IMG/VR virus record: IMGVR_UViG_3300042520_001665
Coordinates: 1-30,238 of that record
Direction: 5' to 3' (one strand)
Origin: a virus
DNA: 30,238 nt
The position numbers were made by a program, and so were the translations under genes. Below are positions 2,256 to 23,694 of the stretch, piece by piece (position 1 is the first letter of the stretch; each line of letters starts with the position of its first letter). The notes beneath the pieces were generated by a model. That model saw only the letters and a program-made list of their open reading frames with translations, was not told the DNA's origin and did no database searches.

Positions 2256-5227
2256 TATTCTCCGTCATTATTACAGTTTATATCAATCATAATCCCAATA
2301 TTTAAATACAGTTTTTTATTTGTAAATTCATCGTAACAACTACTATTACTAATAACTAATGAGCTACCCGCAAAATAATAGTTTAACCCATAAACATATA
2401 AACCTTCAAGTTTTTCGTTTATTGAATTAAAAATAGTTGATTGTGTCGGATAGTCCACACTCCCATAACCAGTATAAAATTGTTCTTGAATTAGAGTCAC
2501 ATCATCAAGTCTTACATCAATATACCAATAACTTTTCATTCCGTTTAAGTCACACTGATTTTGAATATATCCTTGTTCACTAATCAAATTATTTAACGCT
2601 TCACTTAACGTAGTGGCACCATAATTCTGTCCAATATCTAAACTACAGATTAACGTTTGATCAATACAATCATAACCAAATGGTTGACCATTAAACGTAC
2701 AAGGAATACAATTAACGGGTATAAATTCACATCCACGTTGTCTTCTCCAAACAAACTTTTGTCTATGGAAAATACTATTATCCATTTTTTGACCCGTATT
2801 CCAAATAGTAGTGGCAGGAACAAATTGTTCTACAAGTCTCACCCAATAATCACCAAGTGCTAATGTAAAATCAATCATTTTTTGATAAGTAAATTTATTG
2901 GTCGGAATATTGATCGCTTCGTCGCTTTGTAAGTACTTCCAAAAAATTGATTGTAATGCAGGATACCCTCCTGTTTTACCGTCACTTATATATTGTCTGT
3001 TTCTAACGTTAATTAAATTATTATAAAATGTTTGAGCAAATTCAAAAAACGTTTTTTGATCGGGTTTAGGGTTTATGACAGTCCAATCAGTATCACCAGG
3101 TGTTGGGTAAGGAGCCGTTAATCCGGAATTTGGTATTGGATAGTTATACAATACGGATTGTTCCCAAACGTCATAAGTAATCCCCTGACCCATATTTAAA
3201 TACAGATCAATGTTTTTAACATTTATAACTAACCTGTCGTCATCCACTCTATAGTATGTTGGCGAATTTGGTGATTGATTTCTTCTAATTCCGACTTCGG
3301 TTTTTGGCCATGATTTAGTATTATCCACCGTTCTAACTAAATTGTAACCAACGTTTGTCATAAATGGAAACTTTCTAAATCTATCAAGCCAATCTTGACC
3401 ATACGTAAATGGCTTAAATTTTGTAACCAAAGAAACGGTATTCCCACTAAATATTGAGTTTTCTTCATCAACAACCTCTAATGATGTATGTTCAGGTGTT
3501 TGTTCAAACCACCCAGCCCCTTTTTGGAAAAAATAATCAGGTGAGTCCTCAACTGCCTTTGGGTATCCGTCTTCATAAATTGGGAAATCTTCAAATGTTG
3601 CAGTAACCGTCTGTAATGTGTTAACTGTTGTAAATCCAGTATATAATATCCCTTGTATTGTAAATGTGTTCGTAGTATCAAATGCCGGCGTATCTAATAA
3701 TAGAGTACTACCCGATAAACAAACATATTGATCTCTAAAATCATTAAAGTTTATTGGGCCATCCGCTAAATAAACATTTTCATTAAATTCAATAAGAGCA
3801 TCAGGCGCACCAACCATTCTCATTACAAACTCTATGGATTTTCTTGTACCTTTAGATTTAAATAGATATGCCGAGTTAAGAATTAAATTTCTATAAAATT
3901 GGTAATTAAGCTCGGTTGGTGTCATTGGTTTTGACATTCCTCCGTAGTCGGACTCATTAGATGTTGTAAAAATACTATTTAAAAAATCCTCATTAGTTAT
4001 TGGTGAAACATTAGGGTCAAATCCGACGGTTTGTGCCAAATTTACCAATAACTGTGACGGAATATCATTTCCAACTATATAATTAACTGAATTAATGTTC
4101 GCTAACGCATCAATAAATTTTTTAGTTTCATCAAAACTTCTACCATATATTTGTAATACTTTTTCTAATTTTTGGTCTGGTGTGTCAAAATCTTTTAGGG
4201 ATCCAGTAATTAAAAATCTTGATATTAAATTAGTTTTATAACTATCGAGTAACTCCGCAATTGTTTTAACTTCGTTAATGTAATTTTCAAAACCTAACGA
4301 TCTAATATCTATATTCCATTCATCCGATAAAGGCCAAGTTACACTTTTAGAATTTAAAATATATGTACCATCATCATCATATTCAGGATATGTAAATGTT
4401 GCAGTATATTTAGGACTGACATTTCTATTTAGTAAAAAATCTTCAACCTCATCGAAACTATCACTAAATATTTTTTCAGTTGTAATATTGTTTGGTTTGA
4501 TTATAATTGTTTCAGTAAATGATGTTAACCCTGAAAAAGGTTTACCTTGTACAGTTATTGTTATAGTACCTCCAGTTAAACTTGGGGATGCTGTAAAATC
4601 TGTAAGATTGTATTCTTCATTATCCGTACTACCAATATAAATTGCATATTTTTTAAACTCTTTTGTTAAATTTCTAAATTCACTAATAGACATTGGGCTT
4701 TGAACCAAATTACTAGTCGCGTTTACACTATAATCAATATCAAATGGATTTGTTAAATATTTTACATCAATTTCAAACGTGGTTTCATCTCCAATTTGAT
4801 CGTATATAATATTATTCGCTGTTATTGCACTATAGCCAGTACCTATATTTTTTTTAGCTATAATAGCCGCCGGAAAATAATTAATGGATTTTGTTATTGA
4901 AACCTCTAACCTTTTTTGTAAAGACCCATAAAGTGAAAAACTTGTAATTTGTGAAATGTCAAAATTAGGATAAACCTGAAAGTTCTTTTGAACTAATAAC
5001 TTACTCTCTTCAACACTACTTATGTCAAGATTTGTTAAATTATACGGTTGTGAAAATATTCCCGTATCGAAATTACGATTACTTTTTTCAAATATCGCAC
5101 TTGTAAACTCAAAAGTACCGAGAGTTAACCCCCCACCTTGCACTAACTGAAGACCGACTAAATTATCAGAAAACGTTTGTGATCCTACAGGAGGTACAGG
5201 TGGATAAAAAAACTTCTTTCTAGCCAT
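2255..5227 (-). CDS. Baseplate protein with P2 gpI / T4 gp7-like segment
   Basis: This 990-aa protein starts at an ATG overlapping the stop of the 302-aa gene (TAATG) and ends in TAATG with the SprB-repeat gene. Residues about 330-475 look like phage tail protein I: helical segments, then RNLILNSAYLFKSKGTRKS and a short MVGAPDA element, where the KGT motif is typical. In contractile tails gpI is the counterpart of T4 gp7 and works next to gp6 (gpJ) in the wedge, and gp6 is encoded here too. Residues about 872-965 form a Cys-containing domain that resembles a segment of the downstream SprB-repeat protein and could anchor a shared partner. The N-terminal 300 residues are beta-rich and unrecognised. 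The gpI assignment rests on pattern and context and is moderate; virion location is more secure. Confidence 0.75.
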   Translation of the reverse strand: MARKKFFYPPVPPVGSQTFSDNLVGLQLVQGGGLTLGTFEFTSAIFEKSNRNFDTGIFSQPYNLTNLDISSVEESKLLVQKNFQVYPNFDISQITSFSLYGSLQKRLEVSITKSINYFPAAIIAKKNIGTGYSAITANNIIYDQIGDETTFEIDVKYLTNPFDIDYSVNATSNLVQSPMSISEFRNLTKEFKKYAIYIGSTDNEEYNLTDFTASPSLTGGTITITVQGKPFSGLTSFTETIIIKPNNITTEKIFSDSFDEVEDFLLNRNVSPKYTATFTYPEYDDDGTYILNSKSVTWPLSDEWNIDIRSLGFENYINEVKTIAELLDSYKTNLISRFLITGSLKDFDTPDQKLEKVLQIYGRSFDETKKFIDALANINSVNYIVGNDIPSQLLVNLAQTVGFDPNVSPITNEDFLNSIFTTSNESDYGGMSKPMTPTELNYQFYRNLILNSAYLFKSKGTRKSIEFVMRMVGAPDALIEFNENVYLADGPINFNDFRDQYVCLSGSTLLLDTPAFDTTNTFTIQGILYTGFTTVNTLQTVTATFEDFPIYEDGYPKAVEDSPDYFFQKGAGWFEQTPEHTSLEVVDEENSIFSGNTVSLVTKFKPFTYGQDWLDRFRKFPFMTNVGYNLVRTVDNTKSWPKTEVGIRRNQSPNSPTYYRVDDDRLVINVKNIDLYLNMGQGITYDVWEQSVLYNYPIPNSGLTAPYPTPGDTDWTVINPKPDQKTFFEFAQTFYNNLINVRNRQYISDGKTGGYPALQSIFWKYLQSDEAINIPTNKFTYQKMIDFTLALGDYWVRLVEQFVPATTIWNTGQKMDNSIFHRQKFVWRRQRGCEFIPVNCIPCTFNGQPFGYDCIDQTLICSLDIGQNYGATTLSEALNNLISEQGYIQNQCDLNGMKSYWYIDVRLDDVTLIQEQFYTGYGSVDYPTQSTIFNSINEKLEGLYVYGLNYYFAGSSLVISNSSCYDEFTNKKLYLNIGIMIDINCNNDGE

Positions 5228-7298: not shown

Positions 7299-8143
7299 TA
7301 TGGGTTGACGTATTCATACCATTTTATCGGACTTGACGTTGTTCCAACCCTTGTTAGTCCTCCTGTTGTATTTTCTAAATATATCTTATATTCATAATTA
7401 TTATAATCCAAAACACATTTATAATAAAAAAGATATTTTTTATCAAAATTAAATTTGTTAAACAATAACCCTTGCGGTTTGTTAATCATTCTAACAAACT
7501 GACCAATTTTTGCATCAAAAAATTTTGCGCTCATATAAAATTCTTTTTGATCCAAATACGAAATATTTTTTAACCAATAAATAAAAAAACCTTCTTTATC
7601 TGCTCCCGTATAATCTAATACGAATTTAGGTCTTTTAACTTTCACTGGAGTTTGGTTTACACTTGGTCCGATAAAACCGTCTTCTAAAAGTCCTTGTTGT
7701 GTCGGCAATATTAAACTAAATAATATTTTTTGTTCTGTTGGTGAACTACTATCATAAAAATCAAGCTTGAAAAAACTCCCTTTAAATGAATTTGCAAAAT
7801 AATATATTTCTTTATCTAAAAATCCGGCAGCCTCGTAATCTATAACCCAATTGTTTGCGTTGGTGGTCGCAGTTACCGTTTGTGAAGAACCCCCATTATA
7901 AAAATAAAAATTATAATTTATATTAGTTTCAGAATCAGTCCCCCAAGTGGCATGTGCAAATCTTGTGGTTTCAAAATCAGATATTGGATTTATTATATCT
8001 TCAATAACCTCTTCTTCAAATTCTTTAATACCATCTTCTCTACCTAAATTATCAAAAGTAATTTGAATTGGGATATTGATGTATGCCGTTTTTGGCGGTC
8101 CGTCTATTTTATATCTATAATAATTACTACTCACAATTATCAA
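7298..8143 (-). CDS. Hypothetical structural protein, 281 aa
   Basis: The family is not recognised. The 281-aa product begins MIIVSSNYYRYKIDGPPKTA and is rich in Tyr, Phe and Asn, with many predicted strands in the C-terminal half, including a KYLFYYKCVLDYNNYEYKIYL run. The start overlaps the end of the 570-aa gene by 17 bases, and the stop overlaps the ATG of the 376-aa gene as TAATG. The gene is therefore translated within the chain of baseplate-region genes. A tail or baseplate role is inferred from context alone. Confidence 0.8.
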   Translation of the reverse strand: MIIVSSNYYRYKIDGPPKTAYINIPIQITFDNLGREDGIKEFEEEVIEDIINPISDFETTRFAHATWGTDSETNINYNFYFYNGGSSQTVTATTNANNWVIDYEAAGFLDKEIYYFANSFKGSFFKLDFYDSSSPTEQKILFSLILPTQQGLLEDGFIGPSVNQTPVKVKRPKFVLDYTGADKEGFFIYWLKNISYLDQKEFYMSAKFFDAKIGQFVRMINKPQGLLFNKFNFDKKYLFYYKCVLDYNNYEYKIYLENTTGGLTRVGTTSSPIKWYEYVNP

Positions 8144-9839
8144 ATATTGGTGAATTGACTAAAGTTGTTTCAACATAAGTAATTCGTTTTATTGGCGTCT
8201 GTAAAAAATTTATTGTCGTAAATGGGTAATGTGCGTCATTTGTAAAAGGAAAGTCAATACCTCTATTTTCGGCATCAATAAACCCATAATCATATATATC
8301 CCTCCAATACCAATTTTTTTCATAATCTGAATACCAAGAATAATTAGGTATATCTACTACAGGTAAATTTGTTGTACCTTCTTGAGTATAACTTTCAATA
8401 TAATCACTATATTGTCTTATTGGTATTGAATGATGTGGAATATAACAATACCCTGCAGGTAAATTAAATGGTGAATTGTCAAGAAATAAAATGGGATTAA
8501 AAGAGTATTTATGATAAAGTTTTGATATCACATATTCTTTTTGTTCCATATCATTAAACTCACAAAAATCACCTTTTATAACACTACCTGTTTTAAGATC
8601 TCTATTATAGAAAAAAGTATTTCCATTAAAATTATAACTACCTGTTGGTATATTATCTTTATTATTTATGGAGGTATGGTTCCACCAATTATCAACGCTA
8701 TCTTTTAAAAAATTAAACTCCCACCCAATGTCAATCGCTTTTTGATCATATCCCGGTTTATTAAACCAACCCATATAACCTTTGTTTAAAATTGTCACAA
8801 AAAGCTCTGTTACCGGTTTTCCATTATTATCAACCAAAGGGTTAACCTGTATATCTTTATTAAACGTAAAAGAAAAAGATTGTGAATCTTCCTTTATTGA
8901 AACTCTCTGTGTTTGGTTTGGTGTTAATCCAGAATATTCTAATTTTTTCTTAATACCAAATGGGTTATTTTCAAATGCAATTTTTGTCAGATTTACTTCA
9001 TCAACATCTGTTAAAATTTTATGTAATCTAACATAGTATCTAGATTTTGTTTCCCCACTATTTTGTAAATTTGTTATTCTTTTAAATGTTCCTGATTTTC
9101 CATTATATACGTTTAAATTAGAAAACTTTAAATTGAAAATATAAAATACTTTATTTTCAGATCCATATGTTCCATCCCCTAAACCAAAAACACTAAAAAC
9201 CGTTTTATTATTTATCGGAGATGACAACTCTACCCACTGACCAACCGATAAATTATGGTTAGTTCCACAATAAAAATAAATAACTTTTTTTCCATTATAA
9301 CTTCCTTTTTTTATAACAAAAGGTATTCCATCAGAACAAAGAAAACTATTAATTGTGACACCATTTCTTTCATCAGTATATGACATTGTTTGCGCGGTAG
9401 TACTAGAATACGCATATGAAGCATAAACGGTCCAATTATACGTATTTGCACTTTTAGGAACAAATGGAATATGACCTTCTATTCCTTGTGATCTACCAAA
9501 AGTAAATTCACTATATTGTGGAAAACCTTGCCACACATTAGTTACTATAGATTCTTCAGGATTTAAGTAATAAAGATTGTTTTTAAAAGGAGTGTAATTA
9601 GTTTTACCACTTAAAGTGTTATCAAATAAATTTACAAGTTTACCTGACAATCTAATTTTATCGCTTTTTTGTCTTTCAAGATTAAATCTTTCTTGTAAAT
9701 TTATAAGTACCGTTCTGTCATTTTCTGTATAAGAATTTTGGTCACCAAAAAGTGGTACTTGTAATTCTACATCCCTATTTGGTGTTGTTGCATTTCTTTT
9801 TGATCCTAAAACTATTCTAACTTCACTTTCCTGACTCAT
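8127..9839 (-). CDS. Hypothetical baseplate-region protein, 570 aa
   Basis: The family is not recognised. The 570-aa product starts MSQESEVRIVLGSKRNATTP and is dominated by aromatic and Asn residues, typical of beta-rich virion proteins. It has no membrane segment, signal peptide or recognisable catalytic motif. It lies two bases after the stop of the 1653-aa gene and overlaps the next gene by 17 bases, so it belongs to the same operon. By gene order it falls where T4-like phages carry wedge proteins such as gp8, but I see no sequence basis for that name. Confidence 0.8.
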   Translation of the reverse strand: MSQESEVRIVLGSKRNATTPNRDVELQVPLFGDQNSYTENDRTVLINLQERFNLERQKSDKIRLSGKLVNLFDNTLSGKTNYTPFKNNLYYLNPEESIVTNVWQGFPQYSEFTFGRSQGIEGHIPFVPKSANTYNWTVYASYAYSSTTAQTMSYTDERNGVTINSFLCSDGIPFVIKKGSYNGKKVIYFYCGTNHNLSVGQWVELSSPINNKTVFSVFGLGDGTYGSENKVFYIFNLKFSNLNVYNGKSGTFKRITNLQNSGETKSRYYVRLHKILTDVDEVNLTKIAFENNPFGIKKKLEYSGLTPNQTQRVSIKEDSQSFSFTFNKDIQVNPLVDNNGKPVTELFVTILNKGYMGWFNKPGYDQKAIDIGWEFNFLKDSVDNWWNHTSINNKDNIPTGSYNFNGNTFFYNRDLKTGSVIKGDFCEFNDMEQKEYVISKLYHKYSFNPILFLDNSPFNLPAGYCYIPHHSIPIRQYSDYIESYTQEGTTNLPVVDIPNYSWYSDYEKNWYWRDIYDYGFIDAENRGIDFPFTNDAHYPFTTINFLQTPIKRITYVETTLVNSPIFDNCE

Positions 9840-9841
9840 TC

Positions 9842-12800
9842 TTATTGATTAAAAATATATTTAGTTATGTATCTATTCATGGCACTTGCCCCTTTTGTTA
9901 ACCCAAAATAGAAGTGATAAGGAGCACCAACAACATATGATGTTGGTTGTCCGTTTGGCCAAGTAACCGTAGGAACTAATCCTGATGTTCTATTATAGAT
10001 GTATCCCAATTTTTCTCCATTTCCTGGTTTAAAATATTCTGTTTGTGTAAAATCCATTGATTGGTATGGTTGAGAATAAAAGTTTGACCCTCCCGTTACC
10101 CATTCATTTGTGTCTTTTCCAAAAATTGTTGTCTGACTTTGACTTTTCCATTTATATAATGGTACAACTTGCGTCTTAGGGTATCCAAAATTTGTATAAC
10201 TTGTTTTACCAGGGGATAGTAATTGTCTACTTGCAGTATCAGAAGAAAATAAAATACCAAATAATGGATCACCTCCACTATTTTCTACATATATATCATT
10301 TTGATCATAATCATCACTACTAAACCCTTCAACACCATATTCTGAATTAATACTCATTGTTTGTGCAAAATCACCATCAACTCTATCTTCACTTCTACTA
10401 AATATTCTATTAATTGATGCGTCACCCAACGCCAATGCTTGTCCCCAAAAGTTTGAATTTATAAGTCTAGATAAGATAAATAACTGAAGTATGTCCGATC
10501 CATCATTAAACGACGTTGTTCTTATTGTATCGACTAAATAACCTTCAAATTGGGGATTAAAACAAATTTCTTTTGTAAATTCATCTCTTGGTCCTAAATC
10601 CATAACGGTTGTAGGGAAGAAAATATTCTTTGTGTTCATTCCTCCGTAGTTATCAGCACTTTCCCAAGGATCATTTAAAATAGGATTGACATCAATCTTT
10701 TTGGGTAATTGACCAATAAATTTATCTGTTTGGTAATAGTACGGAGTTGCCCTATAAAAAAACGAATTAGTGGTTCCAAATGTAAAAATTAATGGTCCCT
10801 GACTCGGTCTAACACTTAATGGGTCTCCACAATATTTATATCTTTTTAAATCCCCAAGTATTGTAAATCTTTTTGCGTTTTTAAATGAAAACATATATAA
10901 CGATCCATTAACCCAATTGTTTTGAAAAACGTGACTTATTACTCCTCTACACGCGGCAAACTGAAATCTAAATCTACTTTTCCATTCTTCAAATGCTTTA
11001 ATATCTTTAGGTAAAGAAAAAATTAATGGATTGTCAACAAAATAATAACAACCACCAACAACTCTTCGGTTCGTATCATCTTTACCCATTTTGTTTTCAT
11101 CACAATCTTCATTAATTCCAAAATTGGTTCCAGACCCTTCGTAACAACCAAGTGGTACCATATTTTCACAAGAAAGAGAATCCACAACATCGGTAAATGC
11201 TCCCCCATCTTCTGCAAAGTTTGCGGCAGAACCTGTGTTGTCAGTAGCATTATTTGACATTGCAGGAGTTGTAAATCCACCAGTATCATCTATTAAATAA
11301 AATCCAAAGTTATCATTTAAATGTAATGAAAAAGATGTGTTTCCATAAACCTCAGTAATATCAGAAGTAGGTAAACGATCAGATCTAAACACCAATCTAT
11401 TATTTGCAGTTATTGTTATATTTGGATTATTGAGCGTTTCTAAATGATATGCTGGCGAATAAGTTCTTAAAATGTTGTTTGGTGGTAATTCTACTGAATT
11501 TATTGCTTGATCAATATTTAAATCAGGAACAAACGTACTAGCCTGTAAAGAACCTCCTTCTATTAAACCTTGTTGTTTATTTATATCATATCCGGCCCCT
11601 CCTGTTGGTGGAACATAATAAACTTGAAACCATAGTTTATTATTACTTGTTGATATTCCTCCATTCGACGGATTTGCTGGGGATGTTATTTGTCCCAACG
11701 TTATTATATCTCCATTATACGCAACGTGATTTGATCTTGATTTATCCGTTGAGTTGTAATAATGTGGTGAATTATTTGTAAATGCCGTAAATGCTGAGGT
11801 GTCCACATTAAAACCAAATGGTTCGTGATATAACTTTGTATTGGTGTTATTACTAACATCGTGAGATTCAGGAGTTAACAAATTATTATACCAGTTACCG
11901 GATCCTGTGTTAGGTTGTATTGGTATATTTAAATAATAATCACCCTCAATTATTGGACCTGATCCATAATTATACCCAAATATTTTTGATAAATCGTATT
12001 TTATTTTTTGTTTTTCGGTATATGGATCAACACCTCTCGTTAAAAATATTATTTCATAGTCATCCCTACCCTCTAAATATTCCGTTGAGTAATCATTTAT
12101 TCTAAACCCTGCACCTGCAGACGGATATCCCACCGTTGAATATCTAACGGATTGTATTTTTTTAAACAAATATTCATTTAAAATTGAGTTCCATCTTGCC
12201 GCACCACCCGAACCCGTAACGGCTTGACTTACTAAGTTTTGGTAATTTACATATGTGTCTCCTGTTAATACTTGGAAATATTCTATACCTGATTTAAACT
12301 TGTATTGTTTTCCGTTTTCACTTATTTTAAGTTTTAGTGTTGAAGTCGTGATAATCGAATTAGGACCTATACTACTTATTGTTTTAGTAACTAATTGGGT
12401 TGCATTATATGGCGTGGTACCTGTAATTGAATTAGTATTAAACTGATTTGCAACAGTTAAACCTGTAATATTTGGGTCATTTATACTTGCCGGATTGTTG
12501 AAACTAAGTATTTGTCCTGGCGTTAAATTACTTAAAGTTCCCGGATCACAAAGAATAATTAAAATACTATCCTCAAATGGTTGTGATGGTTCAGGAACAT
12601 TAGTTACTGGGTTATTATTATAAACTATCGTTTTTATTCTGTTTGGTCCGGTACCACTAAAATAACGAGATCTTAAATTCATTAAATTTAATGATTGCGA
12701 TAATGTCACATCAGCACCTAAATATAAATCACCACCTCCCTGCTCCGGCACCTCAACTAAAGGTAATTTAACTAATTTATCTCTACTCGCAGAAGTCCCT

Positions 12801-14803
12801 TGTCTTTGGTATCCAGAAAAAAGTTGGTTGGCCCCTGTATTATAATTAACACTATTACCTATTCCTCCTTCAACGGCATAAAAATCTCTATTAAAAGATG
12901 CCACCGAATTAATATCAGACAAAAGTGAAACATTAACAGATGAAACAGTTGTAGATGCTTGCTGTGCAAAATCACCACCATCGGTTGTTAAATCTGATGC
13001 CTCACAAGCACACGCCTCACAATCAGGATATGATATCATTGGAAATGATAACCTTTTAAAAGGGTTATCCTCAGACAATGGCTTTATTGTTGATTTTTTA
13101 CAATCTTCCTTTTTAAGTTTTGAGCTAAGAGCTGCGACAACAACACATATCGCATAAACAATAACGTTTATAATCCATATTATTATATTAACAATAACTC
13201 TTAAAATCGGATATAAAGACGCCAAAACATGCATCAAAACCAAAAGAGGATATATAATCAATGCAGAAATAGATATAAACAAGTTAAATAGGAAAAAAAT
13301 AAAATCAAAATTTCTTACACCATCATTAACAGGAAATCTATTTGTTGATGTTAAACAAGATCTATCTGTGATTTCTTTTATCCCCAAGTGTCTTGCTCTA
13401 CCATAACCCCACTTCCATCTATCAATAAAAGACGCAACGGTATAAACTTTATTATAATTAAATTCATAAAATCTATCTTTACACTCAATTGCTTCTTGTA
13501 TCATTGCAAGGCCAAGAGTAGTTCCGGTATTACCATAATCTGCCCAATCTAAACTAAACGCATAGTTTTTTAATTGTGTAACGGTATCAAGTGGTGGTGC
13601 TGAAGTTGTGTTTTCTGAAGATCCAGTCCATCCCCATTCTTTTACATTAGGTACCAAATAATCGGCTCTTTGAATTGGTGATGCCAACCCTGACTCGTTT
13701 TGATATTTAATTCTGAATCTGTACTTACCTTTTGTTGGTACTCCGACTTTTGGGTCTGCAGATAACACTTGTTCTCCAAATTCATTTGTTGTGACATAAT
13801 CTAAGTTCATCGGTACTTCTACAAGCCAAGCACCATTTTCATCGATTACATTACCCCCTTCTTCTAAATTATATTGTTCTAAGACGGGTCTTCCATCAAC
13901 ATCGTAATCTTTTGTTTGTCTTATTGCTAAAATACGACCTGGCCCCGTTACTAGATCACAAAGATTTCCTACATCATTTTTTGGTTTACAATTTGTTCTT
14001 AAATAATCTTCTTCTGATGAAGAAAAAATAGACCCCATAAATGTTGCCTGTGGTTTGATATCTATATTATAATCTCTAAGATCAAAATCAGTTCTAGTTA
14101 TTCCAATATTACAAATTTCATCTTGTCCCCAAAAAGGTGCAACGTCAATATCTTTTGCCGCATTTAATATTTGTGGTAGTGATGCTAAATCTTCAGATGA
14201 CTTAAATCTTTGTCCGTTAAATTGTTCGGGTGTTCCCCTACCCATTCTAATTAGATCTGCAGGACGTAGAGAAAAACATCCCATATTTGAAAGGTCTAAA
14301 TCCAAAACTATTTTTTGACTTCCCAATGGTACCCCTACAATCATAAAATCACCGCTTTCGTTAGTTTTTACGGTGTATTTATAATATTTTTCGTAAATCT
14401 CTAATACTTCTTTTCTTGTTAAAACATCTTCTCTTGATGGGAATGTTCCGGTAGGTGTATGTCCATTATATTCTTGAACGTATGGTAACAGATTATATCT
14501 ATAACCGTCTTCGTTTTTTTGCTCTAAAAACTTATATGGGTAAAGTGTCGATATAACAGGATCGTTTTCATCAATATTACTTAATGGTACAAAAATTGAG
14601 ACATTTGCGTTTGGTATTCCAAACCCTCCGTTAGCAATAACCCTACCAACAACAACTCCGTAGTCAGCACAAAATCTTGTATATACGTCCTCTTGTTTTA
14701 ATTTTAATGATAAAATTTCAAGAAAGTCAAAATCTTGATTTATGTTAATTCTTATGTTTTGATCGACACCTGGTTTTGTGCGAAGCCTATAACTTTTGGA
14801 CAT
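9842..14803 (-). CDS. Giant baseplate-region protein with carboxypeptidase-regulatory-like domain and internal hydrophobic segment
   Basis: The 1653-aa product starts MSKSYRLRTKPGVDQNIRIN and directly follows gp6. Residues about 51-175 resemble a carboxypeptidase-regulatory / Cna-B-like Ig fold, with GRVIANGGFGIPNANVSIF at 53-71 and TNESGDFMIVGVPLGSQKIV at 147-166, interrupted by an insertion of about 70 residues. Residues about 290-385 may form a second similar domain. Residues 499-560 are almost uninterrupted hydrophobic sequence, long enough for two or three transmembrane helices, with only a His and an Arg inside. A Lys-rich stretch and a Cys cluster (CEACACEAS) at 595-603 follow. The remaining 1000 residues are beta-rich and unrecognised. 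Position suggests a wedge or tail-tip component. A role in touching or entering the host membrane is speculation. Confidence 0.85.
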   Translation of the reverse strand: MSKSYRLRTKPGVDQNIRININQDFDFLEILSLKLKQEDVYTRFCADYGVVVGRVIANGGFGIPNANVSIFVPLSNIDENDPVISTLYPYKFLEQKNEDGYRYNLLPYVQEYNGHTPTGTFPSREDVLTRKEVLEIYEKYYKYTVKTNESGDFMIVGVPLGSQKIVLDLDLSNMGCFSLRPADLIRMGRGTPEQFNGQRFKSSEDLASLPQILNAAKDIDVAPFWGQDEICNIGITRTDFDLRDYNIDIKPQATFMGSIFSSSEEDYLRTNCKPKNDVGNLCDLVTGPGRILAIRQTKDYDVDGRPVLEQYNLEEGGNVIDENGAWLVEVPMNLDYVTTNEFGEQVLSADPKVGVPTKGKYRFRIKYQNESGLASPIQRADYLVPNVKEWGWTGSSENTTSAPPLDTVTQLKNYAFSLDWADYGNTGTTLGLAMIQEAIECKDRFYEFNYNKVYTVASFIDRWKWGYGRARHLGIKEITDRSCLTSTNRFPVNDGVRNFDFIFFLFNLFISISALIIYPLLVLMHVLASLYPILRVIVNIIIWIINVIVYAICVVVAALSSKLKKEDCKKSTIKPLSEDNPFKRLSFPMISYPDCEACACEASDLTTDGGDFAQQASTTVSSVNVSLLSDINSVASFNRDFYAVEGGIGNSVNYNTGANQLFSGYQRQGTSASRDKLVKLPLVEVPEQGGGDLYLGADVTLSQSLNLMNLRSRYFSGTGPNRIKTIVYNNNPVTNVPEPSQPFEDSILIILCDPGTLSNLTPGQILSFNNPASINDPNITGLTVANQFNTNSITGTTPYNATQLVTKTISSIGPNSIITTSTLKLKISENGKQYKFKSGIEYFQVLTGDTYVNYQNLVSQAVTGSGGAARWNSILNEYLFKKIQSVRYSTVGYPSAGAGFRINDYSTEYLEGRDDYEIIFLTRGVDPYTEKQKIKYDLSKIFGYNYGSGPIIEGDYYLNIPIQPNTGSGNWYNNLLTPESHDVSNNTNTKLYHEPFGFNVDTSAFTAFTNNSPHYYNSTDKSRSNHVAYNGDIITLGQITSPANPSNGGISTSNNKLWFQVYYVPPTGGAGYDINKQQGLIEGGSLQASTFVPDLNIDQAINSVELPPNNILRTYSPAYHLETLNNPNITITANNRLVFRSDRLPTSDITEVYGNTSFSLHLNDNFGFYLIDDTGGFTTPAMSNNATDNTGSAANFAEDGGAFTDVVDSLSCENMVPLGCYEGSGTNFGINEDCDENKMGKDDTNRRVVGGCYYFVDNPLIFSLPKDIKAFEEWKSRFRFQFAACRGVISHVFQNNWVNGSLYMFSFKNAKRFTILGDLKRYKYCGDPLSVRPSQGPLIFTFGTTNSFFYRATPYYYQTDKFIGQLPKKIDVNPILNDPWESADNYGGMNTKNIFFPTTVMDLGPRDEFTKEICFNPQFEGYLVDTIRTTSFNDGSDILQLFILSRLINSNFWGQALALGDASINRIFSRSEDRVDGDFAQTMSINSEYGVEGFSSDDYDQNDIYVENSGGDPLFGILFSSDTASRQLLSPGKTSYTNFGYPKTQVVPLYKWKSQSQTTIFGKDTNEWVTGGSNFYSQPYQSMDFTQTEYFKPGNGEKLGYIYNRTSGLVPTVTWPNGQPTSYVVGAPYHFYFGLTKGASAMNRYITKYIFNQ

Positions 14804-14876: not shown

Positions 14877-16718
14877 CTATGAAAAATTGACTGAGTTTAA
14901 ATTTTTTACTCTAACTTTAATATCAACGTTATCAAATCTTATTTGATAAATTTGATCGGGTTCAGCAAAAATAGTATCGTCTATAATTTCAATTTGTTTG
15001 GCCTCAGGATCAATATATCTCTGTGATGTTTCAGATGATGAGTATTGACCCCCAACTTTATTATATATGTTTAAATTAGCCAATGTAGACACACCTGCCA
15101 CATTTTGTATTAATCTTCTAATATCTGAAACATTTAAGTTTTGACCCATTTCCCTATTACTTGGCTGCATATAGTCCGACACTGAATTAATGACTTGTGT
15201 TATAACTTGTCCTTGATTAACCCCCCCTTCTAAAACTACAAATATTTCAAATTCTAAATCAATAACTTTTGCAACCTCAACTGAAACGTAGTCATTTATC
15301 ATTCTATAATTTGACAAATATGTTGCAATATTTTTAATCAAATTAGATGAAACCGTTTGTGTTAATTTTTTTCCACTATCTAATGACAAAACTTTTACTA
15401 ATATTTTATTGTCTTTTTCTGAAACAGCAGCTTTAGATGGTGCGCCAAATTTACCAGGCATTGTATCTATTATTGATTTATAATCATTTATAGTTACTGC
15501 CCTTTTTTGTGCAGCAAAGTTAAATGTAACCATATTTCTTATTTCTTCTATTGTAGGTGGATTAGCCCCTCCAATCGCTGCAGTTACATTATTTACGGTT
15601 AAAGATTGTATTACTTTTTGGTTTTCAGTATTTGATTGTCCGTTTACTACAAAATCTATAGTACCAACTTGATTGATTGCTCCGACACCGACGTTAGACG
15701 CCAATCCTCCACCAACCCTATACTGAATAAATAATGTTGTATTTGGTTGTACAGTTAAACCTAAACCTATATTATTTTGAAAGTTTTGAATGTTAAGGGG
15801 TATTCCTATTCTTGTAAATTCTTTTAATTGTTCATTAGGGGTTGTTGTACCTCCTCCAAATTGAACTCTCATAAACCCTTCTGGTGTGTATTCTGTTATA
15901 AATCTATTATCGGTTCTAAAATATTTACCAACCTTAATTCCTGTATTGTCGACGGGTTTTGTTGGGTCTTCTAAAAATACAGTATCCTGCGCCAATGCAT
16001 CAACTTCGTACCATTTACTTGTTGAATTAATGAAATCCGAGTATCCGGGTACTGTTTGGTAGTTGGTCCCCTCTTTTTGTATAATAGCAGAAACATTTAA
16101 TATATTTCTTTCAGGAAGGAATAAATTATAGAAAGGGACAACATCGATACTATTAATAGGTTTTTTAAATACTTTAGTCGTACCATTAACTACTACTTCT
16201 TGTTTTGTTATTCTATATGCAACAGTTGTGTTTTGGGAATTTTTAATGGGTATTTTAATTCTATTTTGAAACCCTAAGGCACTATATTCTGATGAAAAAT
16301 CAACATCATATAAATTTTCAAAAACCGTACCAGCACCTAAAAATTGTGATCCTGCCCTTAACACTCCCAAATATTGAGTATCTTCTTTATCTCCATTAAC
16401 CGCATTTACCGTAATCGATAAATTCAATACAGTAACTGAGGGTCGATAACCCGGTATTTTTAATCCATATGTTCTTGCAATGTTAAATACTGAAATTCTT
16501 TGTTGAGCGTATTGTAAAACAGTTTCTTGTATACTTCGATCAATATGGTAATTTAAATTGTCTCCAATTGCTGCATTTAAATCCATCAAAACTGAAAATA
16601 TTGAAGCGTCGTTGAAGTTGTTGATTAAATCGGGATAATACTGTTGCGTATAATTTATTAGGTCTTGTCTTAGTCCTGCAAATTCCCTTTCAGTATATGA
16701 TATTTTTTTATTTGCCAT
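14877..16718 (-). CDS. Baseplate wedge protein gp6-like (baseplate J family)
   Basis: The 613-aa product resembles T4 gp6 / P2 gpJ, the wedge protein that dimerises to form the ring holding the baseplate together. Seen: the N-terminal segment YTEREFAGLRQDLINYTQQY (9-28), then DASIFSVLMDLNAAIGDNLN and YHIDRSIQETVLQYAQQRIS, which is the usual start of gp6 in T4-like phages. Around 405-450 KRAVTINDYKSIIDTMPGKF matches the baseplate-J pattern of an RAVT-DY element followed by a strand-rich domain. T4 gp6 is 660 aa, so the length fits. The gene begins four bases after the gp25 stop, the classic gp25-gp6 order. The stop is TAG. Confidence 0.93.
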   Translation of the reverse strand: MANKKISYTEREFAGLRQDLINYTQQYYPDLINNFNDASIFSVLMDLNAAIGDNLNYHIDRSIQETVLQYAQQRISVFNIARTYGLKIPGYRPSVTVLNLSITVNAVNGDKEDTQYLGVLRAGSQFLGAGTVFENLYDVDFSSEYSALGFQNRIKIPIKNSQNTTVAYRITKQEVVVNGTTKVFKKPINSIDVVPFYNLFLPERNILNVSAIIQKEGTNYQTVPGYSDFINSTSKWYEVDALAQDTVFLEDPTKPVDNTGIKVGKYFRTDNRFITEYTPEGFMRVQFGGGTTTPNEQLKEFTRIGIPLNIQNFQNNIGLGLTVQPNTTLFIQYRVGGGLASNVGVGAINQVGTIDFVVNGQSNTENQKVIQSLTVNNVTAAIGGANPPTIEEIRNMVTFNFAAQKRAVTINDYKSIIDTMPGKFGAPSKAAVSEKDNKILVKVLSLDSGKKLTQTVSSNLIKNIATYLSNYRMINDYVSVEVAKVIDLEFEIFVVLEGGVNQGQVITQVINSVSDYMQPSNREMGQNLNVSDIRRLIQNVAGVSTLANLNIYNKVGGQYSSSETSQRYIDPEAKQIEIIDDTIFAEPDQIYQIRFDNVDIKVRVKNLNSVNFS

Positions 16719-16722
16719 TTTT

Positions 16723-17187
16723 TTAAATGTTAATTATTATAAATTGACTTGATCCAAAACCATTTGTATTATCAGTATAATCAATTTTTAGTTTAGCAGT
16801 ATATTCTTGAGTGGCTAAACCAGGGATTTTATAGATATCTGCAGTACCTAAAAGATCAGTATTAATTTTACCTTCCGCTTCTTCACTATCAATATATGGC
16901 TCTACCGTTATGTTATTTATAGTAACATTTGGAATAAACTTATTTACTTGTTCTTCAATTTCGGATTTTATTGACTCAAAAGTCAATCCATCCAATGGTT
17001 CAAATATATATTCATATATTCTTGTTCCAAAGTCAGGTAAATAATACCTACTACCCCTTCTTGTTAAAATTAAATGAAGTAAATTACTTCTTATTTCATC
17101 AGAAGGAAATTCAGATAACTTAAAATACGTACCCTTAGTAGTTTCCCTAAAAGGGTAAATAATTCCAAAAGTCACACCATTTGCCAT
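16723..17187 (-). CDS. Baseplate wedge protein gp25-like
   Basis: The 154-aa product matches the gp25/lysozyme-like wedge family, a small protein joining the wedge to the sheath and required for sheath assembly. The hallmark segment is RRGSRYYLPDFGTRIYEYIF at 43-62, with FEPLD after it, matching the conserved R-G-x-R-x-xPxFGxxxxxxxFxP pattern. T4 gp25 is 132 aa, so the size fits. It opens the left structural block, immediately after an intrinsic terminator that closes the replication module, and is followed by gp6 after four bases. The leader contains two TATTTAT elements that could belong to a late promoter. Confidence 0.93.
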   Translation of the reverse strand: MANGVTFGIIYPFRETTKGTYFKLSEFPSDEIRSNLLHLILTRRGSRYYLPDFGTRIYEYIFEPLDGLTFESIKSEIEEQVNKFIPNVTINNITVEPYIDSEEAEGKINTDLLGTADIYKIPGLATQEYTAKLKIDYTDNTNGFGSSQFIIINI

Positions 17188-17550: not shown

Positions 17551-19410
17551 CTATACTATTTCACAAGCACCTCCCGCACACGCAGCTTCACCTCTTAAAT
17601 CGGTATTATCTTGTAACTCAATAACTTTTGTAAGATCAACATCTGTTAATGTTTTAACCAATTTTTCAAAGTCTTCTTTTGTACAATCTTCAAAAGGTGC
17701 TTGTGTATATGTCCCTCCATTATATGGTAATACTGAAAGTCCGTTATAAAAATCTCTGTTATTCCACATCCAATCACCAACTAGATCCCATTCGTCTTCT
17801 TTAATTGAAACAGTTGCAGATACGTTGTGGGTATTTTGACCATTTCTATGACCAGACTTAATCCATTCTTGAGATACTTTTTTAACTCGTTCCAACATTT
17901 GGAATACTGACTCGTGTCTAACAATAGACCCTTCAGGTGCCTTTTGTGGGATTGTAATTACCGCAGTATCATGAGGACGGAAAAACTCATCTTCAATAAG
18001 TTCAGGATGGTAAATTGCAAGATAAGAGTAGATTGATTCATTTTTACCAACACGTATTCTTCTTAAGTAGTAATCATTATGCCATGCGTGGATTCCTGAT
18101 GACGTACCCAATACCAATGATGAAGTACCTGATGGTTTAACTGTTGTTGTTCTTGCAGATTTGTTAATTCCAATAAGACCAGCAACTCTTTCATTTTCTT
18201 CTTTAACTGCTTTAGCCGCCTTTTTCATATCATAACCAAGTACAACACCTGAACCAATTCCTGTCATACCTACACCGATAAGTGCGTCTTTTTCAGTTGT
18301 TCTTTTCCAAATATCTCTTAAATAATGGAAGTCAGTATATCCCGCCTGTAGTGTACCGATGAATGATGCTGCCTTAACTCTTGCGTCAAAATCTTCTTGT
18401 GATTCAATATCAGAAGCATTAACCTCACACAAGTTACAGAATTGGAAAGGTCTAAGTGCAATCTCACAACAAGGGTTTGTTCCCCAATCTTTATCGTTAG
18501 ATAAGTAGATTCCTGGCTCTCCTGCTCCTGAAAGTTCAATACGTTTCCAAAGACCCATAAAGAATTCTTTTGTGATTTTGTGACGAAGAAGTACTGCTGA
18601 GTTATTTGCTCTACCTCTTTGTGGGTTTTGTTCCCACCAAGATCCAGATTTACAAGAAATCATTTCTTCATCGTCGGCAGAGAATAATGAAATAAGTGCA
18701 GCTCTTCTAATACCACCCGCTAGTACCGCATCAGCAACATGGCATACGATATCGTGAGTTTCAATTGGTGTTAATTTTTCACCATCTTTTTTGTTATCCA
18801 ACACTTTTGTAATGTTATGAATACAATCTTTTAATGGTTGGGGACCCGGCGCCTTTCCTCCTGATGTTACAAGATTTGCCCCCTTGTGTCTAATATCTGA
18901 AAAATCAAAAATAGGTGTTGATGATTTGTACCCTAAATAAGACTCCATAAGTACTTTGATCGCATCTGCCCATCCTTCAATAGAATCTCCAATTAGATAA
19001 CGTCTTGTTCTTTCAGCATTTGGTTTTTTAATGTCTGGCAATTTTTCAACGTGATGTTTTTGAACTGAATAACCAACACCCGTACCACCTAATAAAAGAA
19101 ACATTGTTTCAGAAAATGCATCTACGTGATCAATTGGCATATACGCACAATTGTAAATTCTGTTTGGTGAAATCTCAATTGGTTTTCCACCAAATTGTAA
19201 CGATCTCATTGACGGTAAAACTTTTTTGTCATACACCATTTTATATACTTCCTCAATCTCATTTTTAATTTGAGGGTATTTCTTTTGGTGCATTTCTTTA
19301 TTACGAGTAACCAACTCCTCCCAAGTCTCTCTTCTGTTCAATTCAGGTTGAAACTTAGCGTATTTCATAAAGACAGTGATGTCACTTAATATTTTTTGCG
19401 AAATATCCAT
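17551..19410 (-). CDS. nrdJ: Class II (adenosylcobalamin-dependent) ribonucleoside triphosphate reductase
   Basis: The 619-aa product reduces ribonucleotides to deoxyribonucleotides for phage DNA synthesis. Motifs: C88 in RIYNCAY (redox Cys), TNPCCEIAL at 311-319 with N312, C314 (thiyl radical site) and E316, and C325 in FCNLCEVN (second redox Cys). The C314-C325 spacing equals that of C408-C419 in the Lactobacillus leichmannii enzyme. The C-terminal pair C611 and C616 in ACAGGACEIV has the spacing of its C731/C736 reductant pair. PSGTSSLVLGTSSGIHAWHN at 426-445 is a typical RNR loop. There is no NrdB-type subunit nearby and no glycyl-radical tail, which supports the monomeric class II type. 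It is about 120 residues shorter than the 739-aa Lactobacillus enzyme, mostly before the active-site Cys. The stop is TAG. Confidence 0.93.
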   Translation of the reverse strand: MDISQKILSDITVFMKYAKFQPELNRRETWEELVTRNKEMHQKKYPQIKNEIEEVYKMVYDKKVLPSMRSLQFGGKPIEISPNRIYNCAYMPIDHVDAFSETMFLLLGGTGVGYSVQKHHVEKLPDIKKPNAERTRRYLIGDSIEGWADAIKVLMESYLGYKSSTPIFDFSDIRHKGANLVTSGGKAPGPQPLKDCIHNITKVLDNKKDGEKLTPIETHDIVCHVADAVLAGGIRRAALISLFSADDEEMISCKSGSWWEQNPQRGRANNSAVLLRHKITKEFFMGLWKRIELSGAGEPGIYLSNDKDWGTNPCCEIALRPFQFCNLCEVNASDIESQEDFDARVKAASFIGTLQAGYTDFHYLRDIWKRTTEKDALIGVGMTGIGSGVVLGYDMKKAAKAVKEENERVAGLIGINKSARTTTVKPSGTSSLVLGTSSGIHAWHNDYYLRRIRVGKNESIYSYLAIYHPELIEDEFFRPHDTAVITIPQKAPEGSIVRHESVFQMLERVKKVSQEWIKSGHRNGQNTHNVSATVSIKEDEWDLVGDWMWNNRDFYNGLSVLPYNGGTYTQAPFEDCTKEDFEKLVKTLTDVDLTKVIELQDNTDLRGEAACAGGACEIV

Positions 19411-19437
19411 TTTGTATTAATTTATTAAATTTATTTG

Positions 19438-20817
19438 TTAAACTTGATTTTCTCTTTGTCTTCTTTGTTCAAGAAGTTCTTTGATTCTATTACGATTTTT
19501 TTCTTCTTTTTGCTCTTCATGCCCTAAAAATGTAACACTTTGTTCCGTGTCAATTTCTAACATTCCGTTGTCAAATTTACAATTTTCAAAGATGATACCA
19601 TCTTTTCCAATTCTTGATTTTGTAATCGCAATAGTTGCTAAATTCATTTCTTTTTGTTGTAATGATTTCGCGACAGTAATGATAACGTGACCTACTTGTG
19701 CTTTTTTAATGGATCCACCCATTTGATCGGTTGTTACAACTTCAGAAGATATAGAGTTTCTGTTACCTTGTGTTGCTGTCCATCCGGCAATATTTAATTC
19801 GTGACATAGAGCTTCAAATGATCTCATAACAGATCCCTCACTCTTCCATTCATCTCCAAGCATTTTGTCAGGAACGACACAATCAATATAATCCAAAATA
19901 ATCATATCAATTCTTGTCCCATCCGCAATCATTTTTCTTACCTGATTTTTTATTTGATTCATTGTTACGGTATCAGACGGTAATTTTTTCAAAATTAATT
20001 TGTTTTTTCTTTGTTTTTGAATTTGTTTAACCGTTTCCATTACCTCATCTTTATGGTCTGATAAATCGTCAGGTGCAATTCCTGTCCATAAAGTAAAATG
20101 TTTTCTTTGAATAATTTTTGGGTTGTCTTCAAAGAAAATCTGTAAAACATTGTAACCTAAATTAAAAGCGTGGTTTGCGATCTTTGTTGTAAACGTACTT
20201 TTTCCAACCCCTGTTGGTGCTAATATTACTCCTATCTCTCCTTTCGCCAAACCACCTTTAAGTAGATTGTCAATTCCTGCAACCCCAATTGGAATTGGGT
20301 GTCTATAATCTTCATTTAATACTTCGTCTAAATCGTAAAACACATCGTTAGTCCCTTTATCCACTTCCCCAACTTGAAGTGCGCCTCTAACCATTTCTTC
20401 CAATCTGTCATAACTTTCAAAATCACCTTTGTCAATGATTTTTTGAGCCTTACCCATTACTTTTTGAAGTTCTTGTTGTTTACAAAATTTTAATGATTTT
20501 TCTTGAACAAACTCATACCCATCATCAGGAGTTGATTTAATTTGTTCTACCATATCCAAGACACTTTTTTGTGCCATAGGTGATGTAATCTCAGATTTTG
20601 CGAGTTGTTCTAAAGTATCAAAAGTAGGTGTGTGTTCGTACTTTGTATAATACTCTTTAATCATTTGACAAATCAGACGAAAGTATTGGTTATCAAAATA
20701 GTGAGGGTCAATTACATCAATAATTGTGTTTGAGAAATCTTTGTAAAGTATAATATTGTTAAGTAATTGGATCTGAAATGTGTTCCCTAAATAACCGAAA
20801 TTTTTCTTGTCTGACAT
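19438..20817 (-). CDS. DnaB/gp41-like replicative helicase
   Basis: The 459-aa product is a RecA-fold hexameric helicase that unwinds DNA at the replication fork. The N-terminal helical domain (about 1-150) precedes a C-terminal ATPase. Walker A is APTGVGKST at 200-208, Walker B MIILDYID at 305-312, and ATQGNR at 348-353 is the DnaB motif H3 with its sensing Gln. SRIGKDG at 401-407 supplies the arginine expected near the subunit interface. Length matches T4 gp41 (475 aa). Neighbours are the 5' nuclease, UvsX and SSB upstream and RNR downstream. No primase is in the window. Confidence 0.93.
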   Translation of the reverse strand: MSDKKNFGYLGNTFQIQLLNNIILYKDFSNTIIDVIDPHYFDNQYFRLICQMIKEYYTKYEHTPTFDTLEQLAKSEITSPMAQKSVLDMVEQIKSTPDDGYEFVQEKSLKFCKQQELQKVMGKAQKIIDKGDFESYDRLEEMVRGALQVGEVDKGTNDVFYDLDEVLNEDYRHPIPIGVAGIDNLLKGGLAKGEIGVILAPTGVGKSTFTTKIANHAFNLGYNVLQIFFEDNPKIIQRKHFTLWTGIAPDDLSDHKDEVMETVKQIQKQRKNKLILKKLPSDTVTMNQIKNQVRKMIADGTRIDMIILDYIDCVVPDKMLGDEWKSEGSVMRSFEALCHELNIAGWTATQGNRNSISSEVVTTDQMGGSIKKAQVGHVIITVAKSLQQKEMNLATIAITKSRIGKDGIIFENCKFDNGMLEIDTEQSVTFLGHEEQKEEKNRNRIKELLEQRRQRENQV

Positions 20818-20845
20818 ATAGTTTTAAGTTTGTTTCCTGTTTTTA

Positions 20846-20852
20846 ATAAATA
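20846..20852 (-). promoter_or_regulatory. TATTTAT element upstream of the helicase gene
   Basis: The sense strand reads GATATTTATTAAAAACAGG in the 38-base gap between the 150-aa and helicase genes. The heptamer is shared with other leaders in the window. An internal promoter is possible but unproven. Confidence 0.25.
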
Positions 20853-20855
20853 TCT

Positions 20856-21308
20856 TTAAGCTAGTGTATATTCAAGATATTTTGTAGTAATTTTTTTCTC
20901 TGACAAAATGTCAGTTAGGTTCTTCAATACCGATTTTAGGATTGGGCGGGTATCCAGAGTGTATCTTATCTTTGGCGGGTATAACTTGGCATCAATCACT
21001 CTATGATAAATTGTCTCATTTTCGGCCTTTAAATAAATGTTAAATAGCTCTGGACCATCAGTATTTGAGGTTTCAAGAGCCGTAGGGTCTGACTCAATTA
21101 CATATTGATTATCCAGCATGTAATCTACCGTTTTGTTTCTTAATATCCTTTTTACGTCATTTGATATCTCACACATCAAATCATAAAGATCAACACTATT
21201 TTTAACGTTTGGGTTATACCCTTTAACATTGAAAAATCTTTGTACCACAAAATTATCATTTAATGTGATCAAAAATTCAACCTTTGTTACGTCATTTTGT
21301 TCTTTCAT
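20856..21308 (-). CDS. Hypothetical protein, 150 aa, coupled to the 5' nuclease gene
   Basis: The family is not recognised. The 150-aa product starts MKEQNDVTKVEFLITLNDNF and mixes short strands and charged helices; it has two Cys-free halves joined by an acidic stretch (ESDPTALETSNTDGPE). No motif for nucleotide binding or membrane insertion is seen. The ATG overlaps the stop of the 5' nuclease gene as ATGA, which implies translational coupling. It sits between nuclease and helicase in the replication module. By place it might be a replication accessory such as a helicase loader (T4 gp59 position), but T4 gp59 is 217 aa and I see no sequence support. Confidence 0.82.
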   Translation of the reverse strand: MKEQNDVTKVEFLITLNDNFVVQRFFNVKGYNPNVKNSVDLYDLMCEISNDVKRILRNKTVDYMLDNQYVIESDPTALETSNTDGPELFNIYLKAENETIYHRVIDAKLYPPKIRYTLDTRPILKSVLKNLTDILSEKKITTKYLEYTLA

Positions 21309-22315
21309 ACTTTTTTGTTTTTAAATTTTGATTTTTCTTTTCTTGTTAACTTTAAAAATGGTCTTAAAAAATAAACCCACTGATCATCACTTTTAGGTAG
21401 ATATTTAAAAAGTCCATCCTCCATCATCATTTTAATCAGATTCTTATACCCTCTTCCGTCAGGATCCAATGACTCAGAGTAATATAGTTCAACCAATTCT
21501 TTTCCCTCGTCACTAATTAGTGGTTCGGACAAATCTACGATTTTTTTGTTAATGACAAAGAATTCTTCTCCAAATATCCCTTCTTTAGTTTTACCAGTAA
21601 GAAGATTTTTCAAGGCTACATTATCTTTTTGTTCTTTTAATAGTTCTTCACCCTTTTTTAAAATATCGTCAAAAGATATTTCTTTTTCAAGTATCTCAGG
21701 AAATAATTTAACTATTGTTTTCTCACCCAAATAATATATACCATCAATATTATCCGACATATCACCGGCTATTATTTTATAGGTCTTTACATTATAATGG
21801 GGAATTTCAATTTCTTTTAATTTGATCTTATCTCCGTTCTTATAGTACTTTTTTGTGTTTGGCGAATAGATGGTCACATCTTCAGAAATAAGTTGTGTAA
21901 GGTCTCTATCACCACTAAAAATTGTTTTGTGTTCGTTTTTTGAAATTTTGCAATAATATGCGATTAGGTCGTCAGCTTCTGAATTTTCAAACTCAACTTG
22001 TCTAACAAACATTTCTTCCAAATATTGTTTAACCCGTTGTTTTTGTTTACCAAATGATTCTTCTTTAAAATCTTCAGTTACCCCTTTTCTGTTAAGTTTG
22101 TATTTTGGGTACAGGACTCTTCTTTGTGCGGTTGATAATTCTCCATCCCAAAAGACCACAACCTTATTATAATTGGTTTCTTCTAAAAACTTGCGGATGG
22201 TATTTAAAAAGTGCCAAATACCACCCACATGCTCCGTTCCATTAAAATAATCTTTAACTCCGTGAAATCCAATTTTTAATAAATTGTTCCCATCGACTAA
22301 TAAAGTTTTAGTCAT
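21305..22315 (-). CDS. rnh: 5'-3' exonuclease / RNase H (T4 Rnh-like, FEN family)
   Basis: The 336-aa product is a 5' nuclease that would remove RNA primers and flaps during lagging-strand synthesis. The metal-binding acidic residues of the family are visible in order: D8 in LLVDGNN, D57 in VVFWDGE, E113/D115/D116 in NSEADDLIAY, D136/D138 in SGDRDLTQL, and D185/D188 in IAGDMSDNIDG, the last being the start of the helix-hairpin-helix region. T4 RNase H is 305 aa, so the size is normal. The C-terminal 90 residues are Lys-rich. It overlaps the 150-aa gene by four bases and follows UvsX by 21 bases. Confidence 0.92.
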   Translation of the reverse strand: MTKTLLVDGNNLLKIGFHGVKDYFNGTEHVGGIWHFLNTIRKFLEETNYNKVVVFWDGELSTAQRRVLYPKYKLNRKGVTEDFKEESFGKQKQRVKQYLEEMFVRQVEFENSEADDLIAYYCKISKNEHKTIFSGDRDLTQLISEDVTIYSPNTKKYYKNGDKIKLKEIEIPHYNVKTYKIIAGDMSDNIDGIYYLGEKTIVKLFPEILEKEISFDDILKKGEELLKEQKDNVALKNLLTGKTKEGIFGEEFFVINKKIVDLSEPLISDEGKELVELYYSESLDPDGRGYKNLIKMMMEDGLFKYLPKSDDQWVYFLRPFLKLTRKEKSKFKNKKV

Positions 22316-22336
22316 TAATTTTTTCTTATAAGGTTT

Positions 22337-23630: not shown

Positions 23631-23649
23631 ATTGTTTTTTTAAAAAATT

Positions 23650-23684
23650 AAATAAAAAATGGGCATTAATCAACTCAATGCCCA
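23650..23684 (-). terminator. Intrinsic terminator after the SSB gene
   Basis: On the minus strand TGGGCATT (23677-23684) pairs with AATGCCCA (23660-23667) around a 9-base loop and is followed by TTTTTTATTTAATTTTTT. It lies 10 bases after the SSB stop and should reduce read-through into the 98-aa gene and uvsX. Confidence 0.85.
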
Positions 23685-23694
23685 AATGTTTTTT

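Follow-up and report, generated by a model that had tools for sequence, protein, structure and literature searches.

A conserved and probably membrane-type segment in a giant protein encoded next to the baseplate genes of uncultivated phages

The window, a virus record of 30,238 bases from IMG/VR, carries a group of tail genes on its minus strand. Among them is an uninterrupted reading frame that runs from an ATG at 14803 down to 9842 and encodes a baseplate-module protein of 1653 residues, here called the giant. Directly upstream lies the gene for a gp6-like baseplate wedge protein of the Baseplate_J type (14877-16718, minus strand; PF04865, E 2.7e-9; phrog_219, E 2.6e-20), preceded by that for a gp25-like wedge protein (16723-17187, minus strand; PF04965, E 2.2e-9; phrog_261, E 1.2e-19). 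The sequence-only reading had placed the giant right after gp6, and these Pfam and PHROGs identifications bear it out. A protein of 570 residues (8127-9839, minus strand) is encoded directly downstream, and further on there is a large wedge-like protein of 990 residues (2255-5227, minus strand) with profile matches to proteins of isolated phages. The arrangement recurs among relatives as the conserved gene order gp25, gp6, giant, 570-residue protein. Across 231 loci, gp6 is found directly upstream of the giant in 223 (in 7 more a small gene or a gap lies in between), and in 170 of the 172 loci that extend far enough past the giant it is followed by the 570-residue neighbour.

Two large relatives, G003 (214 kb) and G001 (291 kb), show a wider part of the tail region. 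In both, genes for sheath, hub, a tape-measure candidate and two very large proteins are followed by replication genes, and these by gp25, gp6, the giant, the 570 gene, genes 281, 376 and 302, the 990 gene and fibres. Within this sheath-to-fibre module the giant is the only sense-strand reading frame that exceeds the threshold for membrane spans. The tape-measure candidates of the two genomes (612 and 664 residues, related to each other) are not hydrophobic, with values of 0.81 and 0.73; the assignment of the 612-residue protein rests on a single weak PHROG tape-measure match (E 1e-4). An ORF other than the giant, L241:14848-16683 on the minus strand, has a weak tape-measure match. In the window, as in G003 and G001, a replication block (17551-24549 in the window) interrupts the tail operon, with hub-type genes on one side of it and gp25 on the other. 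It encodes a B12-dependent ribonucleotide reductase, a DnaB-like helicase, a 5'-3' exonuclease, UvsX and a single-stranded DNA-binding protein. At 25635-30059 there is an ORF of 1474 residues that is related to a 2135-residue protein of G001, which in turn matches a 2320-residue protein of G003. The window version is much shorter than either and had no match in the family search.

By gp6, the closest annotated phages (about 27% identity) are Flavobacterium phage immuto, Microcystis phage Mel-JY01 and the huge phage LR756508; the closest UvsX (42% identity) is again that of immuto. All three share with the giant lineage the order gp25-gp6, and each has a homologue of the 990-residue wedge protein, the profile of which matches a 1336-residue protein of Mel-JY01 (E 5e-7), the 1265-residue gp109 of immuto (E 1e-3) and a 1400-residue protein of LR756508 (E 3e-3). 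The giant itself is another matter. Two giant profiles (A1 and A2) gave no significant match among all ORFs of these three phages, and the proteins that they encode after gp6 are, unlike the giant, without a membrane-like stretch. The earlier assignment of the giant to the baseplate wedge thus survives in part: the setting, a gp25-gp6 operon, is confirmed, but the conserved big wedge-like protein in common with isolated phages is the 990-residue ORF. A giant akin to gp7 of T4 or gpI of P2 is not supported, since its profiles gave no significant match to the large wedge proteins of the isolates; for the 990-residue neighbour, the profile matches support such a relationship in part.

The virus that carries the giant is most likely a T4-like phage with a contractile tail. 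SprB repeats (PF13573), known from the gliding adhesins of Bacteroidota, were detected in a fibre-like ORF of the window (3-2255, minus strand, open at the contig end). Fibre ORFs with such repeats also follow the 990 gene at L239:13507-15981, L251:17858-19999 and L252:638-2617, and G003 and G001 have the repeats at the corresponding position. Since the fibre ORF has SprB repeats and the closest UvsX is that of a Flavobacterium phage, the host is likely to belong to the Bacteroidota, to judge from these sequences.

Relatives of the giant are abundant in environmental data. Scans of IMG/VR gave 298 relatives (80 kept) with the window protein as query, 280 with the distant member L067 and at least 596 with a profile. 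The proteins have 1653-1900 residues and, in the aligned set, are 31-78% identical to the window protein; much longer giants of about 2100 residues occur at L189, L190, L199 and L200. Neither a tblastn search of the INPHARED phages with two members of the family nor a scan of the contigs of GTDB genomes returned a match at the sensitivity used, and searches of Pfam, PHROGs, NCBIfam and PDB sequences were empty. One PDB profile match, to a chain of the CatSper channel (E 0.08), was taken as noise from hydrophobic composition. A single homologue is known, by way of a structure library only: A0A8S5LA66, a metagenomic protein of Myoviridae sp. ctPuP5 in BFVD, which is 43% identical over a structural alignment of 388 columns (Foldseek E 4e-41). 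It is genuinely homologous to the N-terminal part of the giant and is itself uncharacterised. The lineage is large, environmental, uncultivated and widely distributed, and no isolate close to it turned up in the collections searched. A spurious ORF or frame artefact was ruled out, as the frame is intact in hundreds of IMG/VR contigs and dN/dS is 0.06-0.15 throughout.

The feature that sets the giant apart is a hydrophobic stretch at residues 499-560 (13124-13309, minus strand), marked by hydropathy, conservation, a predicted helix and low dN/dS. The sequence-only reading had described these residues as nearly all hydrophobic, and the mapping is exact. On the Kyte-Doolittle scale the best 60-residue window (501-560) has a mean of 2.28. 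No shuffled version of the protein comes near this value: in 5000 shuffles the best 60-residue window averaged 0.69 (s.d. 0.17) and never exceeded 1.71. Elsewhere in the giant all 19-residue windows are at or below 1.26. Of residues 501-560, 82% are AVILMFWYC, and the only ionisable or charged ones are H525 and R535. The Wimley-White octanol scale gives two strong spans that start at 501 (16.2) and 530 (12.0), compared with 6.7 for the next best in the protein. The spans cover about 501-530 and 533-559. Between them, an aromatic residue and proline at 531-532 (W/Y/F-P) with K/R at 535 (46 of 52 representatives) are likely to mark the turn; in the window protein the intervening 531-535 has the W/Y-P pair and a basic residue. 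Spans were called from these two hydropathy scales alone, and on them the giant shows what is expected of an integral membrane protein, namely uncharged spans of about 20 residues with conserved hydrophobicity. Residues 499-560 are most likely a membrane-type module, the minimal form of which would be a two-helix hairpin. The room for two or three transmembrane helices seen earlier corresponds to two in the window protein and further spans in other clades.

The hydrophobic stretch is kept throughout the family. It is found in all 52 representatives, a non-redundant set with less than 75% identity, and in all 229 fetched loci that cover the site; some of these loci share contigs, so that 52 is the non-redundant count. 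An N-terminal profile matched 235 ORFs, 199 of which fit a strict pattern of the flanks, each with at least one span. Of the 36 that do not, 6 stop upstream of the site or inside it; the stretch, the upstream cysteine and the CxxCxC motif are present in each of the remaining 30. The conservation across relatives on which the sequence-only reading had staked its proposal is therefore overwhelming, with zero relatives that lack the segment. A mobile insert as the origin of the segment was rejected because every relative keeps it; nor does it look like an intein, on what we take to be the general features of inteins.

The manner of conservation differs along the site. Among the 52 representatives the mean pairwise identity is 70% for residues 420-498 and 66% for the motif at 585-601, and it is 37% for the core (501-548). 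The mean hydropathy of that core is nevertheless 2.09, with a range of 1.65-2.39, which points to selection on hydrophobicity and not on sequence. The segment is under purifying selection: in 31 close pairs, dN/dS is 0.08 for the core and 0.06 upstream of it; past the core it is 0.15 for the linker and 0.13 further downstream. Its length varies too. Between PVND and the cysteine motif lie 81 to 159 residues, and the number of Wimley-White spans per locus, counted at a loose threshold of zero, is mostly two, three or four, with up to five in some and a single span in three loci. The long forms carry P-G and charged turns. Span-sized steps in length between fixed flanks fit membrane spans rather than a fixed globular core.

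Four invariant cysteines bracket the segment. Cys483 (13355-13357, minus strand) is just before it, invariant in the alignments of 52 and 70 sequences and in all loci that span the site. The other three form the cluster C595-x-x-C598-x-C600 (13004-13021, minus strand) just after it, invariant in 52/52 and 70/70 sequences and part of the motif LPMxSYP(D/E)CxxCxC. C483, C595, C598 and C600 probably close the base of the module, most simply as a putative metal site (Zn or Fe-S). Further near-invariant cysteines of the giant include C45, C231, C272, C282, C441, C1212, C1252, C1285 and C1325; so many in a virion protein presumed to be assembled in the cytoplasm suggest more metal sites.

Within the first span there is a near-invariant histidine, His525 (13229-13231, minus strand), present in 52/52 and 70/70 aligned sequences. 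A pattern search found it in 194 of the 199 pattern-fitting ORFs, and the remaining 5 carry it on inspection. Among the 229 loci it is missing only in the clade L211/L212/L215, where serine takes its place, and in the partial L221. A Lys-rich patch and a CEACACEAS cluster had also been noticed after the segment, and both were found again. The patch, KLKKEDCKK at residues 562-570 (13094-13120, minus strand), precedes CEACAC at 595-600. Since the family as a whole does not conserve the patch, it was dropped as a component of the mechanism.

An AlphaFold model of residues 1-700 (70 sequences; pLDDT 68, pTM 0.51) draws one continuous helix of 59 residues, 501-559, with pLDDT of about 74-84 by block, and no hairpin. 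The regions of low confidence are the conserved flanks, 457-498 and 587-650. With these flanks and a single helix, the model displays neither the hairpin nor the four-cysteine site, and it supports a hydrophobic helix that stands apart from the domains of the giant. The structural check suggested by the sequence-only reading thus gave a stand-alone helix; a place in a beta or globular core, which would have spoken against a membrane segment, was not seen. A segment that forms the core of a soluble fold is disfavoured by this helix and by the hydrophobic moments of the stretch. A single helix of moderate confidence, with flanks that are conserved yet poorly predicted, as is typical of contacts between subunits, would also suit a bundle in which three or six copies pack together as a pin or plug, inside the baseplate or surrounding the spike, and never meet lipid. 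Such a bundle seems improbable. Hydrophobic moments of 0.16-0.53, at mean hydrophobicities of 0.54-0.88, leave most of the stretch without a clear polar face, and variation by whole spans, together with the P-G and charged turns of long forms, is hard to reconcile with a fixed bundle.

The rest of the giant is predicted to be rich in beta structure. Up to about residue 390 the model has beta-sandwich-like regions, the first at residues 44-170 (14294-14674, minus strand; pLDDT mostly 78-92) and the second at 285-367 (13703-13951, minus strand), both also seen with Foldseek. For the first region, the best Foldseek matches are beta-sandwich proteins of the pilin/CnaB type and carboxypeptidase-regulatory-like ones, at low TM-scores; the match to pilin has an E of 9e-5 with TM-scores of only 0.1-0.3, and there is no Pfam CnaB match. 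The C-terminal 1053 residues (601-1653) were modelled at a mean pLDDT of 74, and a fold search of the PDB with this model gave no credible match. No homologue of the giant was found in the solved structures or annotated phage records searched, and its place in the operon proves co-expression only. On these grounds it could be a large protein fixed in the membrane that scaffolds or chaperones tail assembly and is not part of the mature particle. We consider this very unlikely, since about 1000 beta-rich, fast-evolving residues encoded beside tail-fibre genes look structural, and the giant is kept one-to-one with gp6 in essentially all relatives.

Membrane-active tail proteins are a kind already known, and the giant would be a variant of it. 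In T5, a 46-residue stretch of the tape measure, pb2*, fits two helices and is proposed to enter the outer membrane, and the hub protein pb3 anchors by a hydrophobic hairpin with Lys/Arg on its flanks (PMC10038345). The giant likewise has, in what would be a tail-tip protein, a stretch sufficient for two transmembrane helices; the T5 proposal is of insertion on receptor binding. The T5 stretch, however, belongs to a tape measure inside the tube of a siphophage, whereas the giant is a separate protein of the gp25-gp6 operon in a contractile phage. No sequence relation to pb2* or pb3 was found, and its segment, unlike theirs, is bracketed by four invariant cysteines. In roseophage R4C, hydrophobic helices of the megatron and the tape measure are proposed to insert in the outer membrane (PMC10276861). 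The R4C and RcGTA megatron, with its iris/penetration domain, resembles the giant in that hydrophobic helices are part of a baseplate protein and not just of the tape measure. Those of R4C are N-terminal in a hub protein of a non-contractile tail; the stretch of the giant lies inside the chain, about 500 residues from its start, and the phage is a myophage.

Lambda gpL and RcGTA gp13 contain iron-sulfur clusters of unknown role, that of gpL bound by four cysteines (PMC10721106). Like these tail-tip proteins the giant has four conserved cysteines, with two differences: its cysteines flank a membrane segment, and its metal is putative. An entry segment of the T5/R4C type and a four-cysteine feature of the gpL/gp13 type thus co-occur around one segment of the giant. 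Homology to gpL or gp13 did not show up in the PHROG and PDB sequence searches. Nor, by the tests applied, does the giant belong to a tape-measure family. There is no PHROG, Pfam or NCBIfam match and the AlphaFold models are largely beta; potentially membrane-spanning hydrophobic segments, a trait of tape measures, are present in the giant as a functional resemblance only. TP901-1 offers a caution for the entry reading: there, the hydrophobic regions of the tape measure may serve chaperone binding and assembly, not membrane insertion (PMC5099701).

Membrane attachment by way of a protein on or beside a contractile baseplate has been described for injection systems. In Anabaena, transmembrane helices of the baseplate-linked Cis13 anchor the system from inside, and deletion frees the machines (PMC8894136). 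In Streptomyces, the membrane protein CisA is encoded beside baseplate genes (PMC12237407). Cis12/Cis13 and CisA share this kind of attachment with the giant. They differ in that Cis13, a small fibre of three subunits, has one helix at its C-terminus and CisA is a separate bitopic protein, and both act in the producing cell. With these precedents, and the same sequence evidence, the segment could be an assembly-stage tether, with no role in entry, that keeps the growing baseplate on the inside of the host cytoplasmic membrane, much as the baseplates of type VI secretion systems, or injection systems on thylakoids, are anchored. This is rather unlikely, in our estimate. Phages exit as soluble particles; a tether would have to leave the membrane again or be cleaved, and a split form of the gene is not found as a rule among the relatives.

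The preferred reading is that the giant belongs to the structural proteins of a contractile phage, in its baseplate or tail tip, and that an integral-membrane module sits within an otherwise soluble, beta-rich chain. We place it in the virion by gene order only. While in the virion the module would be shielded. Rearrangement of the baseplate on the host would release it to enter the host envelope, where it may anchor the tail, or line or seal the entry site, as is thought for the hydrophobic segments of T5 and R4C. The four invariant cysteines would staple the base of the module, most simply through a metal (Zn or Fe-S). Insertion, its timing and the target membrane are proposed by analogy with those tails. 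Taken whole, a shielded membrane module with a cysteine-stapled base that is inserted on firing has, in our judgement, an even chance of being correct. A bolder form is that the dedicated giant, and not the tape measure, penetrates the membrane, its stapled hairpin of two to four or five spans, with the histidine, forming a multicopy channel in the envelope or a collar round the tube; this is possible, though we think it doubtful.

Once the tube of a contractile phage is through the envelope, the route of its DNA across the host membranes remains an open question. To our knowledge, T4-like phages have no agreed universal membrane-channel protein, and we know of no contractile phage or injection system with a baseplate membrane-penetration module of the giant type. 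Since every relative keeps the putative hairpin, these viruses probably build part of an entry pore, or a membrane anchor, into the baseplate. The giant is a family-wide candidate for membrane passage that can be addressed at precise residues: H525, C483, C595, C598 and C600. The motif FPVND-[hydrophobic]-LPMxSYPxCxxCxC can serve as a recognition tag for the phage lineage that carries it. The clade in which serine replaces the histidine (L211:2220, L212:1906 and L215:3194) is a natural test of the role of a histidine within the membrane.
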